Assembly: GCA_003252105.1 (NCBI GenBank)
Contig: QKDL01000010.1
Coordinates: 1-64,000 of the forward strand
From: Arcobacter sp.
GTDB lineage: Bacteria; Campylobacterota; Campylobacteria; Campylobacterales; Arcobacteraceae
Direction: 5' to 3'
Length of the DNA stretch: 64,000 bases
The notes under the pieces were generated by a model. That model had not been told where the DNA came from, did not search any database, and saw only the letters and a program-made list of their open reading frames with translations. The position numbers were made by a program, and so were the translations under genes. Below, one piece after another: positions 2,435 to 29,312 of the stretch; within the stretch, counting starts at the first letter, position 1, and the number at the start of each line of letters is the position of its first letter.

Positions 2435-2472
2435 AAATAACGAATTACTACAGTCTAGATTCGTATCTTCTA
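2435..2472. repeat. attL: 38-bp copy of the rpsU 3' end
   Basis: Identical over 38 bp to 28972-29009. It contains the codons for the last residues of S21 (RRYESRL and stop, minus strand) but no gene body continues from it. The flanking bases differ on both sides, which fixes the repeat limits. Confidence 0.95.
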
Positions 2473-9642: not shown

Positions 9643-12600
9643 TTAATCTATAGCTGACTTTGTACTATGTCTTAAGTTATCACTTATTAAAAAACTATCG
9701 ATGAGGTCTAAAATTTTCTCTTTCTTTTCATTAGACTTTGTTCTTGTATTAAGTTCCAGAATAAATTCTATTAATGGTTTTGAATCATAATAGCTAACTT
9801 CTTTTTCATTATCTATATTCTCTATTAATCCTTCTAGAAGTTCAAATATTTTATCACTTAGTCCAGTATCTGAATAATACTCATTTTGAAGATACTCAAT
9901 AAAGCTTTTTACTTCTCTTCGAATATGTAAAGATGAAACCAAAGCTTTTATAAAATTAAAATCATCTTGAATAAAATTTAAACCATTCATTTTAGTTAAA
10001 CTTAGAGTATAAAAATAGTCGTTTTTTTCATTGTTTTTAAACTTCAAAATAAACTGTTTTGATATTTCAATTTTACGTTTATCTTTTGAATGTAATTCCT
10101 CTTCAAAGATTTGATGTAATATTCCATGAATTACTTTACTGTTCAAGGATATAGATTCATTAAGTAGTTCTTCAAAAATTATATTTTTCTTTGTTAGATA
10201 ATAATAAAATAAAAACATTCCTAAATTATTAACATAATTAGTATCTTCACCATCATTTACTAGAATGATAAATGATATACATTTTTTAATATATACTATT
10301 AATTGTTCTTCTGATACAAAGTTATTCAAATACAAATAGTGAAAGTTTTGTAAAGAGTAGATTGAGACTTGTCCTACTGTGTCATTATCTATTATTTTTA
10401 ATAAGAATTCAGCAAATTTTCCTTGATTAACTGACTCAATACTTCCTAATGTTCTTAATAATCCAAATATAACAAAGTCAATATTTTTAGTAATTACTTC
10501 ATTTATTAAAAATTCAACTCTATTTTTCAAATTATCATTTATATATACATATTTATAAACTACTGGTAATAATTCAGCAAAGTCACCTTCAAAAGAGTTA
10601 ATAGAACTAGTCATATGATCATGAATTGTTTGAAATTTATTCTCTTCTCTTATGATTCCTTCATAATGAATATTTTTATTATTCTCTAAAAATTCTATAA
10701 GTTTTTCATCAAAAACTTTTTTTTCTAATAAATATTTAATAGCCTTCAATATTGTTCGTTTTAACCAGTTATCGTTTACATGAGAATATTTGTGAATAAT
10801 GTTTAGAATTTTATTTTCATCGTAGTTTGCTGCAAGCAAACCATTCAAACCAGCAGATAGATAATCAGGATGCACTTCCTCTTGTTCCAAAATTAATAGA
10901 AAAGGATAAAATCTATCAGGATTTTTAATGATTTCTTTTTCAAATTGCCTATAATGTTCTGTTTTTCCTCCTCTTAAAAAATCTCTATCATTTTTTCGTG
11001 ATTTTTTACCATCAAAAACTTTCATTGATTGAAGCCAATTATTTAAACTCATTTTTGAATAAACACTACTATCTAAAGGTGTGCCTACCCAACCTCCTTT
11101 AGATTTATGAGGTTTTTCAAATTTATACCAATGAAATTTTCTTTGTAACTCCTGGTACTCTTTAATATAATTAAATTTTTTTATATCTTCCTTATCAATC
11201 TGACATAAAAGTTCATATTTCTTTAATCCTCTATATTTGCCATTATACTTTCCTGCTGACCATCTATTTTGCCATTTTGGACTAACTTGAATTATTGTAT
11301 TAAATACTTCTTTTTGCTCTTGTTCGTCAAAGAACTTAAATGATTTATTTAGAAGTAATGCAAATTCATATCCATTATCATAATCTAAATCTAATTCTTC
11401 TAAAAGCTTTTTATTTGTGAGTAAAGTAAAAATTTCATTTTTATATTCTTTAGGACTTTGTGAATAACCAAATATAAGAAATGTAATCAAAGATGAATGA
11501 TTGATATTTTTATATGGGCTTATTAATTTCAAAAATTCTTCTTTATCATTTAGTGCTAATGCTGTAACTGATTTAAGTGTTTTCCCATACAATGCCCATG
11601 TACTGTTATGTAAGTCATCAAACTGCCACATTAAATAATCAAAGACCTTATCAGTAATTAAAAACTCTTTTTTTGAATATTCATTTTTAAACTTTTTACT
11701 TATTTTATATATTGCTGATAAATTCATTTCTAATATCTTAATATTATTTTGTTTTATCAAAAATTTGAATATTTCATACCAATCATGATTTAATACTTCT
11801 TTTCTATCTGTATCATCAATTTCATTAATTCTTAAATCTAGGAAATTAAAAAATAAATTGATTGCATATTCTTCATCAATTGAATAAACTTTTTTATATA
11901 GTTTCTCTAAACTAAATCTAGCAAAGTTATCTTCATATATTAAACTTTCATATTTTTTAAAAATATTAAAATTATAATCATCCCAACTATCTAATCTTTC
12001 TAAAGAATGCATTATAGCTTCACTTTTAATTTTTATATTACAGCCACAAGTATCTAATATTTCAAATACTAAATTACTTTTTGAATTAACAAATGTCTCT
12101 AATCTATATTGTAAGTTATATTGTTCAAAGTTTTTGTCGGTAAAGAAATTTGCTTTTTTAAAGGAAATTAGCCAGTCAGAAGAAATCCAACTTTCAATAA
12201 AATACCTCTCATATTTCTTGTCATGTTGAAATAAGTTTTGAATAAAATTGAATTCTTTATCAGTTGGGTTATCAAGACTTCCTAAGTAAGATACTAATAG
12301 TAGTTTAATGTGAAACCTGACTTTATCTGAATAAATTATATTCTCTAATTCTAATAAATACTTTTCTTCATCAGTTCCTCTTAAAAACTGAATTATTTGT
12401 TTAAATTGTTCTCTAATACTTAAATCTTGACTTGTAGTTAATATATAGTCATATAAAGACATCTCCTTTTGAGCAAAGTTTCTTGCAAAAGCATAATCAT
12501 AAAAAGTTTGATGGAAAAAAGAAATTTTATTTCCTTCTTTATTTAAAATATTTTTACTTTGGAGAATATTTAATTCATCTTCATATTCATCTTGATAGTG

Positions 12601-13920
12601 TAAAATAGGTACTTCAATTTTTTTAAGACTATTCATTTTTTCAACTATTGAATTTAAAAGTTTAATCATCCTTATTCTTATACTCTTATCAATTTCTTTA
12701 TCTTGAATTTTTTGTTCCCAAAGTTTGTCATATAAATCTTGTAAAGTTTTAATAGATATACAACTATTATCAATTGGATATAACTCAATAAAAATTGAGA
12801 GATGTAAAGGTAATCTCAGTAGTTCAATTAATGTTTTATTTATCTTTTCAGATTCTTTAATAAATAATTTTAATTTTTCATTTACATATTCAAAACTTAA
12901 CAACTGAATGCTAACAATATTTGAATTATCTAAACTTTTAAATAAAGGGTCATTCTTTAAATCATATTCTCTAATTGAAACAATTATTTTGACATTTGAA
13001 ATATATTTTAGTTGTTCTATAAACTCTAATATTATATTGACTGTTTTTTTATTTGATGACATGGTTAATGAAAGAGCATCAAGTTGGTCTATAAGTATAA
13101 TTACTTGTTCTTTTCTTGATAATTGTCTAATAGAATGTAGAATATTTTCTACTGCAAAGAATTTTGAGAAAGAATTTTTATCTTCAATATCAAACTTGTC
13201 ACATTTAATACTTAAGTAAGTGGTCTTATTTTGAATTAAATCATTTTGTATTTTACTAAGGATAGCTGTTTTCCCAATGCCTGGTTTTCCCGTTAATACA
13301 AGTAAATCATCTTCAAAATCATTACTATTAATAAAGTCATTAATATTATTTATTTCAGGCATTTTTATAAAACTATTTTGGATATATAGATTTTGAGAGG
13401 ATAGTAAAGTTAGTGAGTTTTCTTGAAATCTTTCTTTTATATCATTTTCAGACAATATATTTTTATCAAATATTTCGGGATAATACTTCTTTGCAACATT
13501 TAGATGTATTTCAAGGAGCCCTTCAATTTCTTCCCAACTCCAAGAGATAACACTAAATCCATATTTAGTTGATAAATCTACAGCTTTATCTTGTATTACA
13601 GTATCTTGTTTATATGAATTTGCAAAAATAAATGTATCTATATTAGTAAACTTTTTACTTGCAGATATTACTTCATTTTCAATATCTTCAAGAAGTTCTT
13701 TCTTTATTTTTTGTTCATCTCTTATAATAAACTTATTTTTACATTGATAAACAATTTGTTTTTTATTACTTGAAAAAGAAATGCCATCTATACCATTTTG
13801 ATTTTGACCTTTTCTTCCATAAACTTGGAACTCTATACCAAATTTTTCTATACATAAATCATTTACTAAAGATTCAAACTCTTTTTCATCTTTTAAAGGT
13901 GGAAATTGATATTTACTCAT
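9643..13920 (-). CDS. Nuclease-STAND NTPase, Avs-like candidate antiviral sensor
   Basis: The 1425-aa protein has three parts. Residues 1-150 form a Mrr-like PD-(D/E)XK nuclease: E15/E16, GQNQNGIDG with D45, and YQCKN with Q59 and K61. Residues about 200-480 are a STAND/NACHT-like ATPase: Walker A GKPGIGKT at 211-218, Walker B VIILIDQLDAL near 273-283, IIVSIREYD as a sensor strand, RLPLHL, and FFHQTFYDYAFA as the winged-helix signature. The remaining ~900 residues are helical repeats. Nuclease-STAND-repeat order and size match antiviral Avs proteins, which bind a phage protein and then cut DNA. Subtype cannot be set without comparison. The 567-aa gene lies 42 bp upstream in the same operon. 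A ribosome-binding site AGAAGAG precedes the ATG. Confidence 0.75.
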   Translation of the reverse strand: MSKYQFPPLKDEKEFESLVNDLCIEKFGIEFQVYGRKGQNQNGIDGISFSSNKKQIVYQCKNKFIIRDEQKIKKELLEDIENEVISASKKFTNIDTFIFANSYKQDTVIQDKAVDLSTKYGFSVISWSWEEIEGLLEIHLNVAKKYYPEIFDKNILSENDIKERFQENSLTLLSSQNLYIQNSFIKMPEINNINDFINSNDFEDDLLVLTGKPGIGKTAILSKIQNDLIQNKTTYLSIKCDKFDIEDKNSFSKFFAVENILHSIRQLSRKEQVIILIDQLDALSLTMSSNKKTVNIILEFIEQLKYISNVKIIVSIREYDLKNDPLFKSLDNSNIVSIQLLSFEYVNEKLKLFIKESEKINKTLIELLRLPLHLSIFIELYPIDNSCISIKTLQDLYDKLWEQKIQDKEIDKSIRIRMIKLLNSIVEKMNSLKKIEVPILHYQDEYEDELNILQSKNILNKEGNKISFFHQTFYDYAFARNFAQKEMSLYDYILTTSQDLSIREQFKQIIQFLRGTDEEKYLLELENIIYSDKVRFHIKLLLVSYLGSLDNPTDKEFNFIQNLFQHDKKYERYFIESWISSDWLISFKKANFFTDKNFEQYNLQYRLETFVNSKSNLVFEILDTCGCNIKIKSEAIMHSLERLDSWDDYNFNIFKKYESLIYEDNFARFSLEKLYKKVYSIDEEYAINLFFNFLDLRINEIDDTDRKEVLNHDWYEIFKFLIKQNNIKILEMNLSAIYKISKKFKNEYSKKEFLITDKVFDYLMWQFDDLHNSTWALYGKTLKSVTALALNDKEEFLKLISPYKNINHSSLITFLIFGYSQSPKEYKNEIFTLLTNKKLLEELDLDYDNGYEFALLLNKSFKFFDEQEQKEVFNTIIQVSPKWQNRWSAGKYNGKYRGLKKYELLCQIDKEDIKKFNYIKEYQELQRKFHWYKFEKPHKSKGGWVGTPLDSSVYSKMSLNNWLQSMKVFDGKKSRKNDRDFLRGGKTEHYRQFEKEIIKNPDRFYPFLLILEQEEVHPDYLSAGLNGLLAANYDENKILNIIHKYSHVNDNWLKRTILKAIKYLLEKKVFDEKLIEFLENNKNIHYEGIIREENKFQTIHDHMTSSINSFEGDFAELLPVVYKYVYINDNLKNRVEFLINEVITKNIDFVIFGLLRTLGSIESVNQGKFAEFLLKIIDNDTVGQVSIYSLQNFHYLYLNNFVSEEQLIVYIKKCISFIILVNDGEDTNYVNNLGMFLFYYYLTKKNIIFEELLNESISLNSKVIHGILHQIFEEELHSKDKRKIEISKQFILKFKNNEKNDYFYTLSLTKMNGLNFIQDDFNFIKALVSSLHIRREVKSFIEYLQNEYYSDTGLSDKIFELLEGLIENIDNEKEVSYYDSKPLIEFILELNTRTKSNEKKEKILDLIDSFLISDNLRHSTKSAID

Positions 13921-13962
13921 TAACTCTTCTTAATATTTTTTTACTACCATTTATAATGCGAC

Positions 13963-15666
13963 CTAATTAATTATTGTTTCAATTCTATAATTTCTTGTCT
14001 GAATATAATTAGGAACATGTTCAAAAAATGTATAATTATCTTTTAATGTTATTTTTTTATCTTTTTCTATTATAGTTGAATTTAATAAATATTCAATAGT
14101 CTCATCCAGCTTTTCTATTTCTAAAACCTCACTAGATTGTGTAATTGAATCTAATTCATGCAAATTTTGTGCTGTATTAAATCTCAACCCATATTGTAAG
14201 ATATTTCTAAAACTATTCCAATCATATAGAATAACATTTTCTATTTGCTGAAAATCAAATAGAGGCATGGTATGTAGTAAAATAAGATGTGTGTTATCTA
14301 AATTTATTTGGCTTAATCCAATTTGTTCAAGTTCTATCTTTAACTTATTATCCTTGTTGTAGAAATAACTAAATGAGTTTAGTTGTTTAACACCCTTATC
14401 AATCAAGTCTTTACTATTACAATAATGATATACTTCTTCTTTTAAATATGCTTTTGCATAAGTTGAATGTTTTGCTTGTATTAAAAAATATTTCTTTCTA
14501 ACTTTATCTACTAAAATGAAATCAATATCTAACTTAATTTTTTTCTCATCTATTTCATCTGTAAAAGTTTTATCAAATCTATAAATATCATAATTTTCAA
14601 ATTCTTTTTTCTGACTATTAATATAATTAAAAATATATTCTTCAAAAATGAAACCTTTTTTTTGATTAAAAGTGTTCTTATTTTTAGATTTCATATAATC
14701 ATTAAAGTACATTCTCATAACATAATCGTAAGCAGTACCATCTATGAAGGATATATTATTCCCTTTTATTTTAAAACCTTTATTTAGATTAGTTTTTAGA
14801 TTACTTTCATATATTATCAGATTTAAAAAATCATTATCAAGTCCTATTTGAGAGAATCTTTTATTATTTTTTAAATGAATTTTACTTTTTGAATAATATC
14901 CATACAATAGATATGCAAAAAATATGCAAAGATTGTTCATATATATTAATGCCTCTAACTCAAAATTCTTATGGTGAATATAATTTTTATTAAAATAAAA
15001 AACTCTATCAAAAAGGAAAGTACTTAAACTTTTTATATAATCGTTTATGTTATTAACTCCACCTTCCATGAAAATCTTATGATTTAGAACTGAACTATAT
15101 TCAAAACTTGATTTATCCCAATTTATTGCCATCCATCTTTTTTTTAAAAGTGTTTTTAGTTCTGGTGTTGGTAATATTGATATTGTGTTCTTATCCATTT
15201 TTAATTCAGCACTATTTAACAATACATAAAAAATTACTTCTTTCAAGTATACAAAAGCTAAAGCAAGTGAAATATCATCTATATTAATCTTATTATTTCC
15301 ATTAAATATATCAATATTATATTCATCAATTATATAATCTAAACAGTATAAAAGAAATCCAGGAAAATAGTCTTGATTACTCTGAATATACATTTTTAAT
15401 TGTTTTATATTTCCTTCATTTAAGATTTTTATAGTGTTTTTAATATTATGTTTTAATTGTAATTGTAATAGGAATACCTCTTTATATAAAATTCTACGTA
15501 TATATTGTTGTTTCTTTTTGGTTGAGAAAAAACTTAATATTTTGTCTAATGAGTTGTTTTTTTTAGTAGCTTCTGGTAAAAATTTTAATATGTCATCAAG
15601 TATTTTCTCATTTAAAAAAGCTTTTCCTTTTGTAGATAATATTTTTATGTCGGTGTGAAAAAACAT
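13963..15666 (-). CDS. PD-(D/E)XK-like protein paired with the STAND nuclease
   Basis: The 567-aa protein is first in the minus-strand operon. Most of it is helical and unassigned. Residues about 330-430 resemble a PD-(D/E)XK fold: an acidic residue in KLDIDFILVD followed by a strand ending in LIQAKHS (the Q-x-K form of the motif), then helices and DNTHLILLHTMP. The catalytic pattern is suggestive, not proven. The partner 1425-aa gene also carries a nuclease domain with a Q-x-K motif. Together they may be a two-gene defence system; a modulator or second effector role for this protein is inference from position only. Confidence 0.5.
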   Translation of the reverse strand: MFFHTDIKILSTKGKAFLNEKILDDILKFLPEATKKNNSLDKILSFFSTKKKQQYIRRILYKEVFLLQLQLKHNIKNTIKILNEGNIKQLKMYIQSNQDYFPGFLLYCLDYIIDEYNIDIFNGNNKINIDDISLALAFVYLKEVIFYVLLNSAELKMDKNTISILPTPELKTLLKKRWMAINWDKSSFEYSSVLNHKIFMEGGVNNINDYIKSLSTFLFDRVFYFNKNYIHHKNFELEALIYMNNLCIFFAYLLYGYYSKSKIHLKNNKRFSQIGLDNDFLNLIIYESNLKTNLNKGFKIKGNNISFIDGTAYDYVMRMYFNDYMKSKNKNTFNQKKGFIFEEYIFNYINSQKKEFENYDIYRFDKTFTDEIDEKKIKLDIDFILVDKVRKKYFLIQAKHSTYAKAYLKEEVYHYCNSKDLIDKGVKQLNSFSYFYNKDNKLKIELEQIGLSQINLDNTHLILLHTMPLFDFQQIENVILYDWNSFRNILQYGLRFNTAQNLHELDSITQSSEVLEIEKLDETIEYLLNSTIIEKDKKITLKDNYTFFEHVPNYIQTRNYRIETIIN

Positions 15667-17589: not shown

Positions 17590-18312
17590 ATGTTTAATGA
17601 TAATCAAATTAAAACTTTAAATAATGAACTAGATTCATCAAGAATAAAAACAAGAGAAAAAGGAAATATCAATCTTTCATATCTTGAAGGCTTTGATGTA
17701 ATAGAAACAGCTAATAGTATCTTTGGCTTTGGCAACTGGTCTTATAATGTTTCAAAATTAGAACAGGTATCACAAGAGGTAAACTCTAATCAAAACCATG
17801 TAGTATGCTATAAAGCAATAGTTAAAATCCTTGTTGAAAACAATCAACATACACAAAGTATTAGTAGAGAAGATGTAGGGTTTGGAAGTGGTATAGCAAA
17901 GACTTTAGCTGATTGTCATGAAAATGGTGCAAAAGAAGCTATAACAGATGCCCTTAAACGTGCTTTGCGTTCATTTGGTAATCAGTTTGGTAACTCATTG
18001 TATGATAAAACAAGAAATCATAATACTCAAAATCAAGCAAATAACTCAAACTCAAATAAAGTTCCATCTTCTACTAATGTATCTAATACTACAGCTACTT
18101 CTTCAAACAATCGTTCTAATACTCAAAGCTTTAATCAGTATGAGTATCAATCATTGTATAACTTAGGATTAAATATAGTTGAACATAGTGGATTTTTAAT
18201 TGTTGTAGGTGATGATATCTTTTCTAAGAAAGATTCTATAAAAGCTTGTGGGTTTAGATGGGATGGTAAAACTAAACAATGGTATAAGCAAATAGAAGAG
18301 GGTGTTGCATGA
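17590..18312 (+). CDS. Rad52/Rad22-like single-strand annealing protein
   Basis: The 240-aa protein carries the Rad52-type annealing domain in residues about 20-140: YLEGFDVIETANSIFGFGNWSY, EDVGFGSGI and ENGAKEAITDALKRALRSFGNQFG, a highly diagnostic series. Such proteins form rings that anneal complementary single strands. After an Asn/Ser-rich linker (about 145-185) comes a short C-terminal module with KACGFRWDGKTKQWYK, a motif found in DNA-processing proteins of mobile elements. Last gene of the operon; an AAGGAG site precedes the ATG. The role for the element (recombination, circle repair or capture of new cargo) is inferred. Confidence 0.85.
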   Translation: MFNDNQIKTLNNELDSSRIKTREKGNINLSYLEGFDVIETANSIFGFGNWSYNVSKLEQVSQEVNSNQNHVVCYKAIVKILVENNQHTQSISREDVGFGSGIAKTLADCHENGAKEAITDALKRALRSFGNQFGNSLYDKTRNHNTQNQANNSNSNKVPSSTNVSNTTATSSNNRSNTQSFNQYEYQSLYNLGLNIVEHSGFLIVVGDDIFSKKDSIKACGFRWDGKTKQWYKQIEEGVA

Positions 18313-18359
18313 TGAATTGATAGTCAACTACTAGTTATGAATTATTTATGATATTTTAT

Positions 18360-18660
18360 TAAAATCTCTTTCCTTCCCCCTATAGAGGGCCTTCGGCCCT
18401 CTACCCCCATCCTTTCTCAAGAATAGTTATAGATTATGATATATTAGATTGTTACTAGACATAGTTGCTGGTCGTTCGTTATCGCTTGGGGCTAACACTC
18501 ACTAATTGCTTTCTTTTTATGGGTTGTTCTACTTCTCTCCTGAGATGCTGCTCAGGTCATCAAGTTAGCCTAACATTTGTTAGGATATTTTAGTCTCTCC
18601 TTAGTTGGAGAATCTCTTTCTTCTCATTGGGCGTTCTGATAGTTTTTAATCTATCATATA
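18360..18660. other. GC-richer non-coding segment with a chain of hairpins (candidate ncRNA, oriT or origin)
   Basis: The gap between the Rad52 gene and the next gene is richer in G and C than its surroundings and has no credible ORF. Perfect hairpins follow one another: TAGAGGGCC/GGCCCTCTA (18383-18403) set between two CCCCC runs, CCTGAG/CTCAGG (18539-18556), CCTAACA/TGTTAGG (18569-18584), TCTCC/GGAGA (18596-18611), and GATAG/CTATC (about 18638-18655). None has a T tract, so they are not simple terminators. A structured RNA, a transfer origin or a single-strand replication origin are all possible. Confidence 0.6.
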
Positions 18661-18787
18661 ATAGTAAAAATATTTTTTAATATTAAATTCATCTAATTAT
18701 AAAACTAATTCAAGATGTAGATAAAACGACATAACCTTTCGTTTGCTCATGTTAAACTTCTTATATAAAACAAAAAAGGAGTTAATT

Positions 18788-19432
18788 ATGTTACCAATAT
18801 TTATTATAGGTGGAGTAGCATTAGCAGCAACTGGTTATGGATTAAAAAAATATATTCAAGATAATGATAAAGAAGATGACTTAGTAGACGCAGTTCATAA
18901 CTTTACTAATTGGGGAGATGAACTTGGAAGAAAGATAGCTGATTTTGGAGATAGTTTTTTTGAGAATAAAGATGAAGAAGAACCTAAAGATGTAATTGAA
19001 GAGTTTAATCTAATTCATAATGGGTTTTATGAAGAGATTGTACCTTCCTTCCTAGAAACTTATGGAAGTTTACAAAATTTACCTGATTTAGATATGGATA
19101 GTTTCTATAAACTTGAATCAAAAACTGAAACAAATGTCTTTGACATTAATGAGCAAGAAAAAGCTGAATTGGATAAATATGTAGTGAAGTTATCGAAAGG
19201 GATTTGTGCTATTTGGACGGAGTTAAAAGAGATTAGACTATTACAAAAAGAGAATCATGATTTTAACCATTTTTCAAAAAGTACAAAAAGAAAAATTGAA
19301 GATGTCCATGTGTTAATGGATGAACTTATTAAAGTTTATAAACTAAAGGTTATCAATGATAAAGGTGAACTAAGAGAAAAGTTTAAAAAAGCACTTGATT
19401 CTATTGAGTTGGCTGCTGATAAAATAATCTAA
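18788..19432 (+). CDS. Membrane-anchored helical protein of unknown function
   Basis: The track begins at 18743, but AAAAAAGGAG directly precedes the ATG at 18788, which gives a 214-aa protein starting MLPIFIIGGVALAATGYG. This first segment is a single glycine-rich membrane span. The remainder is acidic and helical (EDDLVDAVHNF, ELKEIRLLQKENHD), without known motifs. It converges on the XRE regulator with a 4-bp overlap. I do not recognise the family. Confidence 0.6.
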   Translation: MLPIFIIGGVALAATGYGLKKYIQDNDKEDDLVDAVHNFTNWGDELGRKIADFGDSFFENKDEEEPKDVIEEFNLIHNGFYEEIVPSFLETYGSLQNLPDLDMDSFYKLESKTETNVFDINEQEKAELDKYVVKLSKGICAIWTELKEIRLLQKENHDFNHFSKSTKRKIEDVHVLMDELIKVYKLKVINDKGELREKFKKALDSIELAADKII

Positions 19433-28888: not shown

Positions 28889-28910
28889 TGGTTATACCGT
28901 TAGTTAACTT
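28889..28910 (+). repeat. 22-bp terminal direct repeat, right copy
   Basis: TGGTTATACCGTTAGTTAAC and two further bases match 2598-2619 exactly. It lies 61 bp inside attR, in the same orientation as the left copy. Candidate binding site for the integrase or the excisionase-like protein. Confidence 0.7.
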
Positions 28911-28971: not shown

Positions 28972-29009
28972 AAATAACGAATTACTACAGTCTAGATTCG
29001 TATCTTCTA
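28972..29009. repeat. attR: 38-bp repeat containing the rpsU stop codon
   Basis: Identical to attL at 2435-2472. It contains the last eight sense codons and the TAG stop of rpsU plus 13 bp beyond, so insertion leaves S21 unchanged. Confidence 0.95.
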
Positions 29010-29197
29010 AGCATGTACAATCTTTTAAGCATTTTCTTTCTAGCGTTAATTTTTTGCTTCTTTCTTTTTTCAGTCATTGGCTCAAAAAATCTTCTAGCTC
29101 TAGTTTCAGTAACAATAAGATTTCTATCACATTGTTTCTTAAACCTTCTATATGCTTCGTCAAAAGATTCGTTATCTTTAACTTTAATGCCTGGCAC
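28985..29197 (-). CDS. rpsU: 30S ribosomal protein S21
   Basis: This basic 70-aa protein of the small ribosomal subunit helps the ribosome bind mRNA. The sequence [20 protein letters not shown] and the Lys/Arg-rich tail ending RRYESRL are typical of Campylobacterota S21. The track starts at 29206, but the family begins M-P-G-I-K; a GTG codon at 29197 gives this start with GAGGG 8 nt before it. The 3' end serves as the attachment site of the integrative element. moaC is divergent, 116 bp away. Confidence 0.95.
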
Positions 29198-29312
29198 TAA
29201 AATCACCCTCTTTCTTTTAAAATTTGAGCAGTATTATATTTAAAGTTTGCTTAATCCTAATTTAACTGTATTGAAGGTATAATTATTACTATTAAGACTT
29301 TAAAGGATATTT

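Follow-up and report, generated by a model that had tools for sequence, protein, structure and literature searches.

Covariation between its copies demonstrates that a conserved folded element is common to one bacterial island and several phages. The bacterial copy lies in a non-coding segment of an integrative element of Arcobacter sp., within the 64,000-nucleotide stretch of DNA that was analysed (the window). The folded molecule is likely a transcribed plus-strand RNA, and we judge the chances about even that the segment specifies a ~300-nt structured non-coding RNA that belongs to an undescribed family of uncultivated phages and is predicted to act in trans. The initial annotation had listed a structured RNA among its suggestions, and conserved compensatory base pairs, found in the window as well as in uncultivated phage contigs, support it.

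Positions 18360-18660 are the densest GC-paired hairpin stretch in the window. The initial annotation had described them as a GC-richer chain of at least five perfect hairpins in 300 bp, one with CCCCC runs on both sides, with no ORF and placed after a Rad52-like operon, and this description held up throughout. With a stem of at least 5 and a loop of 3-8, five perfect hairpins are found (Table 1), compared with a mean of 1.30 in dinucleotide shuffles (P=0.0055), and four of the stems reach at least 6, compared with a shuffle mean of 0.36, with 0 of 2000 shuffles reaching four. The GC content is 0.39, as opposed to 0.21-0.32 per kb across the element, and no stop-to-stop frame within the segment exceeds 42 codons. 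The CCCCC runs occupy 18376-18380 and 18404-18408, on either side of the first hairpin, and the segment begins at 18313, directly after the Rad52-like gene ends at 18312. Among 300-nt windows from the related loci retrieved for comparison with a GC content of at most 0.42 (6756 windows, maximum 15), none is as hairpin-dense. Folding of the whole segment is mildly better than that of shuffled sequences (z of -1.6 for the plus strand and -2.5 for the minus strand). The further statement that none of the hairpins is a standard terminator was nearly true: the strongest hairpin of the segment is not followed by a T run, but on the plus strand weak T-rich tails follow two of the hairpins, with 0.3 terminator-like hairpins expected.

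Table 1 Features of the hairpin segment and its neighbours.
Feature	Position	Strand	Basis
Segment specific to this element (410 bp)	18313..18722	.	G005 homology break and gene maps
Probable extent of structured RNA	18363..18670	+	Inferred from first and last features common with phage contig L212; ends not mapped
H1 module: CCCCC, hairpin TAGAGGGCC-TTC-GGCCCTCTA (18383-18403), CCCCC, ATCCTTTC	18376..18415	+	Kept in L212
P1 5′ strand GGGCTAAC	18489..18496	+	8-bp helix including one G-U, P=0.0075 (window alone)
P2 hairpin CCTGAG-ATGCTG-CTCAGG, invariant-type loop	18539..18556	+	Covariation over 7 members
Unpaired invariant TCATCA after P2	18557..18562	+	Motif comparison
P1 3′ strand GTTAGCCT	18564..18571	+	8-bp helix test
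Hairpin CCTAAC-ATTT-GTTAGG, weak terminator-like tail	18569..18584	+	Hairpin scan
Hairpin TCTCC-TTAGTT-GGAGA	18596..18611	+	Hairpin scan
Hairpin TGATAG-TTTTTAAT-CTATCA, then ATATAATAG as in L212	18637..18656	+	Hairpin scan, L212 comparison
Rad52-like single-strand annealing protein, last gene of DUF932-Gp157-Rad52 operon	17590..18312	+	Pfam Rad52_Rad22 6e-33
Conserved small protein of element family, downstream neighbour	18788..19432	+	Relatives in 8 other Arcobacteraceae genomes
attL of integrative element	2435..2472	.	38-bp perfect direct repeat
attR, overlaps rpsU 3′ end	28972..29009	.	38-bp perfect direct repeat
rpsU	28985-29206	-	Recognised from translation

Sequence searches with the hairpin core found no true relative in its own genome, 16 genomes of the genus, 399 Campylobacterales genomes, 397 genomes of the phylum, phages or plasmids, and no relative of the 410-bp segment turned up in the roughly 800 genomes searched from its order and phylum. 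A transposon-like repeat was rejected because the segment is present in a single copy. A covariance model built from the single sequence of 18526-18660 gave three weak matches at chance level in 104 genomes of the family, the best of them inside a coding frame. In IMG/VR, an exact search with the second hairpin returned one match, on a 206-kb contig (L206), where the identity extends to 26 of 26 nt and the site is likewise a non-coding chain of hairpins. A looser pattern, in which YCTC, the loop ATGCTG, and GTCATCA were the only fixed parts and no pairing was demanded beyond the outermost C-G, returned eleven loci. Besides the seed L206, the loci L211, L212, L215, and L216 (with its duplicate L217) pair at 6 of 6 positions with differing stems (CCTAGG/CCTAGG, CCGAGA/TCTCGG, CCGAAG/CTTCGG, and CCTAGA/TCTAGG), and the chance of at least four of nine loci pairing fully is about 4e-7. 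The stems of L209, L210, L213, L214, and L218, which match the pattern, are not fully paired, and L208 lies in a terminase gene. With the seed contig counted, five phage lineages carry the motif. One of them, the L212 phage, has a divergent second copy (G594:84092-84126; L246, L260) that reads CCAGGA-ATCCTG-TCCTGG-TCATCA, comes after a strongly pyrimidine-rich tract, and lies near a likely orthologue, judged from translations, of the baseplate gene that flanks the motif in G595. The motif family as treated here comprises the seven members from the two pattern searches. A BLAST search of the L206, L211, L212, L215, and L216 motif regions against cultured phages gave nothing convincing.

The core motif is YCU-CCNNNN-AUGCUG-NNNNGG-UCAUCA, in which the loop becomes AUSCUG when the second G594 copy is included. 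The inner hairpin, P2, is 100% paired across the seven members with 12 double changes, and its covariation score is 0.79, where shuffled controls give 0.33 and slid controls 0.20 or less. This covariation is not circular, because the search pattern left every pair but the outermost C-G free. Members of the family have a covarying P2 of 6 bp, the AUSCUG loop, and the UCAUCA tail. There is partial support for an outer helix, P1, whose 5′ linker varies in length. P1 closes 0-2 nt after UCAUCA, with its partner strand 4-62 nt before P2, and is individually significant in four of six members (the window, L211, L212, and L216). It is weak and not significant in L206 and L215 (P of 0.10 and 0.14) and not clearly discernible in the second G594 copy. 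With the linkers removed by hand, double-sided changes are seen in 10 of 12 pairs. For P1 this count is in part circular, since pairing was the ground on which P1 had been picked. P1 contains G-U pairs, which are compatible with the plus strand only and so favour an RNA of that strand; P2 contains none. The last 3 nt of the P1 3′ strand overlap the hairpin at 18569-18584 (H3), which competes with P1, such that both cannot form fully. The hairpin H1, situated between the CCCCC runs and followed by CCTTTC, is retained in the 138-kb contig L212 (0 of 200 shuffles). Outside P1/P2 and H1 the segment is poorly conserved. The lack of G-U pairs in P2, the weak or indistinct P1 of some members, its competition with H3, and the poor conservation of the remainder count against the RNA reading. 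In 6 of 6 loci tested, the 130 nt that precede P2 contain more pyrimidine than the sequence around them.

The motif can be searched for with a clean gap, with members scoring 42-44.5 bits with model R2 and the best genomic non-member 29. Among 363 Campylobacterales genomes, the window was the only member, and the next eight matches by score (23-29 bits) were all in open frames. The motif is not in Rfam 15, where the segment had no match at E≤5 and the phage members had none at E≤1, except for sub-threshold chance matches on L206. An integron attC was rejected by eye, as its core motifs and spacing do not fit, and so was a minus-strand hammerhead ribozyme (UGAUGA-stem-AGR), for which GAAA is missing and the stem II loop is invariant.

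The segment is contained in a 26.5-kb integrative element at the rpsU 3′ end, bounded by a 38-bp direct repeat. The element core consists of a tyrosine integrase, a T4SS coupling protein, a Replic_Relax protein, and the DUF932-Gp157-Rad52 operon, and the cargo includes an nSTAND3-type NTPase, BnzAB (Bunzi), and IetAS. A WYL regulator is also found in the element (2435-29009), beside the Bunzi (BnzAB) and IetAS genes. Two minus-strand cargo genes at 9643-15666, encoding the nSTAND3-type NTPase and a 567-aa protein without a Pfam match, are inserted between the Replic_Relax and DUF932 modules. A 22-bp direct repeat, TGGTTATACCGTTAGTTAACTT, located at 2598-2619 and 28889-28910 inside both element ends, perhaps represents integrase arm sites.

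Sister elements in other genomes of the same family (G005, G026, and G038) share parts of the element core. Downstream of Rad52, these elements have a DUF2958-like gene (so named by eye from its sequence), small genes, and AT-rich DNA, together with a Rep that belongs to the REP_ORF2-G2P / YagK_YfjJ type. DNA homology to G005 breaks at the Rad52 stop codon and restarts sharply at 18723. By this break and the gene maps, the hairpin segment replaces the DUF2958 - ori - Rep block. The segment contains no Rep gene, and a Rep of the sister type (HUH Rep) was not found in the genome, which is about 92% complete. The suggestion of an origin in the initial annotation is of indirect interest: Rep and ori sit exactly here in the sisters, but the segment has only weak AT-rich similarity to their rep-upstream region and no convincing similarity to that origin. 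The suggested transfer site found no support. The hairpin segment is absent from every sister element seen, including those that keep the coupling and relaxation genes with which an oriT should be conserved. Absence of conservation among related elements had also been named as the observation that would overturn the initial annotation. Taken literally it applies to the sister elements, and the conservation was found in phages instead.

Several other observations concern this region and its counterparts. A conserved box, AACGACAYRACC (18723-18740), which may be an operator, is located upstream of 18788-type genes (loci L089, L090, L084, L176, L178, and L179) and in L179 also precedes a WYL-type regulator gene. 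A candidate Rep-like protein of a different kind is encoded before DUF932 in L032 (2369-3316) and after Rad52 in L039, which suggests that the replication module is swapped between elements. The AT-rich stretch 18422-18468 resembles the 16S-tRNA-Ile spacer of another Campylobacterales genome (L256) and, reversed, the rep-upstream DNA of sister G005 (L034 3043-3077). Either resemblance may be due to chance, in the case of the spacer, seen in G526, because about 400 genomes were searched.

In an RNA encoded by the segment, the P1-P2 core would serve as a binding module with an invariant loop and tail and variable stems, and the remaining hairpins would form a scaffold. The pyrimidine-rich linkers CUCUUUCCUUCCCCC, CCCCCAUCCUUUCUC, CUUCUCUCCU, and CUCUUUCUUCUC may be single-stranded seeds. 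Judged from composition only, these seeds could pair with purine-rich Shine-Dalgarno regions, allowing the RNA to act in trans on mRNAs. A phage is the probable source from which the island would have acquired the RNA, with the loss of its Rep/ori block in exchange.

The main rival to a trans-acting RNA is a cis-acting site, either a DNA hairpin or an RNA, for a phage replication or packaging protein, with the island replicated or packaged by a helper as a phage satellite. Among everything searched, the motif is shared with phages alone. It is mostly present once per phage contig, is found near portal and terminase genes in L211 and near terminase genes in L216, and in the island occupies the place of ori and Rep in the sister elements. 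Mobilisation of tyrosine-integrase islands by a jumbo phage has been reported (PMC12595487). However, the position of the motif in phage genomes is not constant (other neighbours are SbcD-like, HNH, and baseplate genes), G594 has two copies, the G-U pairs in P1 favour RNA, and no packaging-type genes were identified in the island. We regard such a site as unlikely. There is also a small chance that the motif is a signal that large tailed phages use to replicate, package, or regulate their genomes and that the copy in the defence island hijacks it, which would make a structured nucleic acid the basis of a satellite strategy directed at large phages. A passive relic, meaning a captured phage fragment with no function in the island, would account for a single copy that is missing from all sister elements seen and stands where the Rep block was lost, but decay is not evident: the window copy keeps 6 of 6 P2 pairs, an 8-bp P1, the H1 module, and the exact loop and tail, making a relic quite improbable.

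Two further explanations would tie the segment to adjacent genes. As a terminator and insulator placed directly after the Rad52 operon, it would combine a Rho utilisation site, formed by C-rich tracts flanking a stable hairpin, with the weak intrinsic terminators described above, of which there are two where 0.3 are expected. The H1 module lies in the YC-dimer-richest stretch of the window (18341-18418, with 22 YC dimers in 78 nt, the highest count on either strand), and this stretch has the C-rich, G-poor, YC-containing composition of a Rho site and could also serve as one. A role in termination nevertheless leaves the conserved P1/P2 core unexplained, and the phage copies have no preceding operon on the same strand, with the left gene divergent in 5 of 5 phage loci; we consider it improbable. 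A cis-regulatory leader RNA for the downstream gene 18788-19432 would be on the same strand, about 130 bp upstream of that gene. In contrast, 18788-type genes elsewhere lack the segment and are preceded by a conserved box of their own, at 18723. In two phage loci the next gene on the motif strand is convergent, which is at odds with a leader for that gene, and we consider a leader RNA very improbable. A structured RNA with the predicted trans activity is the reading that we prefer.

The motif connects a bacterial defence island to large phages known from uncultivated material, and it raises the question of why a mobile element without the replication genes of its family carries a phage-type RNA in their place. 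Pyrimidine-rich trans-acting small RNAs of bacteria combine stable hairpins with C/U-rich single strands able to face Shine-Dalgarno sequences. The segment resembles them in form, in its hairpins and C/U-rich stretches, and is predicted to act in trans as they do. In Rho utilisation sites such as lambda tR1, a stable hairpin close behind an operon is flanked by C-rich tracts. H1 is similar, but it makes up only part of the segment and does not include the conserved P1/P2 core. Phage satellites with defence cargo, among them PICI, PICMI, and the islands that jumbo phages mobilise (PMC12595487), resemble the island described here, a tyrosine-integrase island with att repeats and defence genes that has a sequence feature in common with large phages. 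It has the gene content of a phage satellite, with an integrase, att sites, cargo, and no full phage gene set, and on the satellite reading it would be packaged by a helper. In contrast to those satellites, no packaging genes or helper phage were identified, and coupling-protein and Replic_Relax genes are present instead. The orphan structured RNAs GOLLD and ROOL are also non-coding, multi-hairpin, encoded in phage genomes, and of unknown function. Compared with them, the segment is far smaller, matches no Rfam 15 model, and is built around a different conserved motif.
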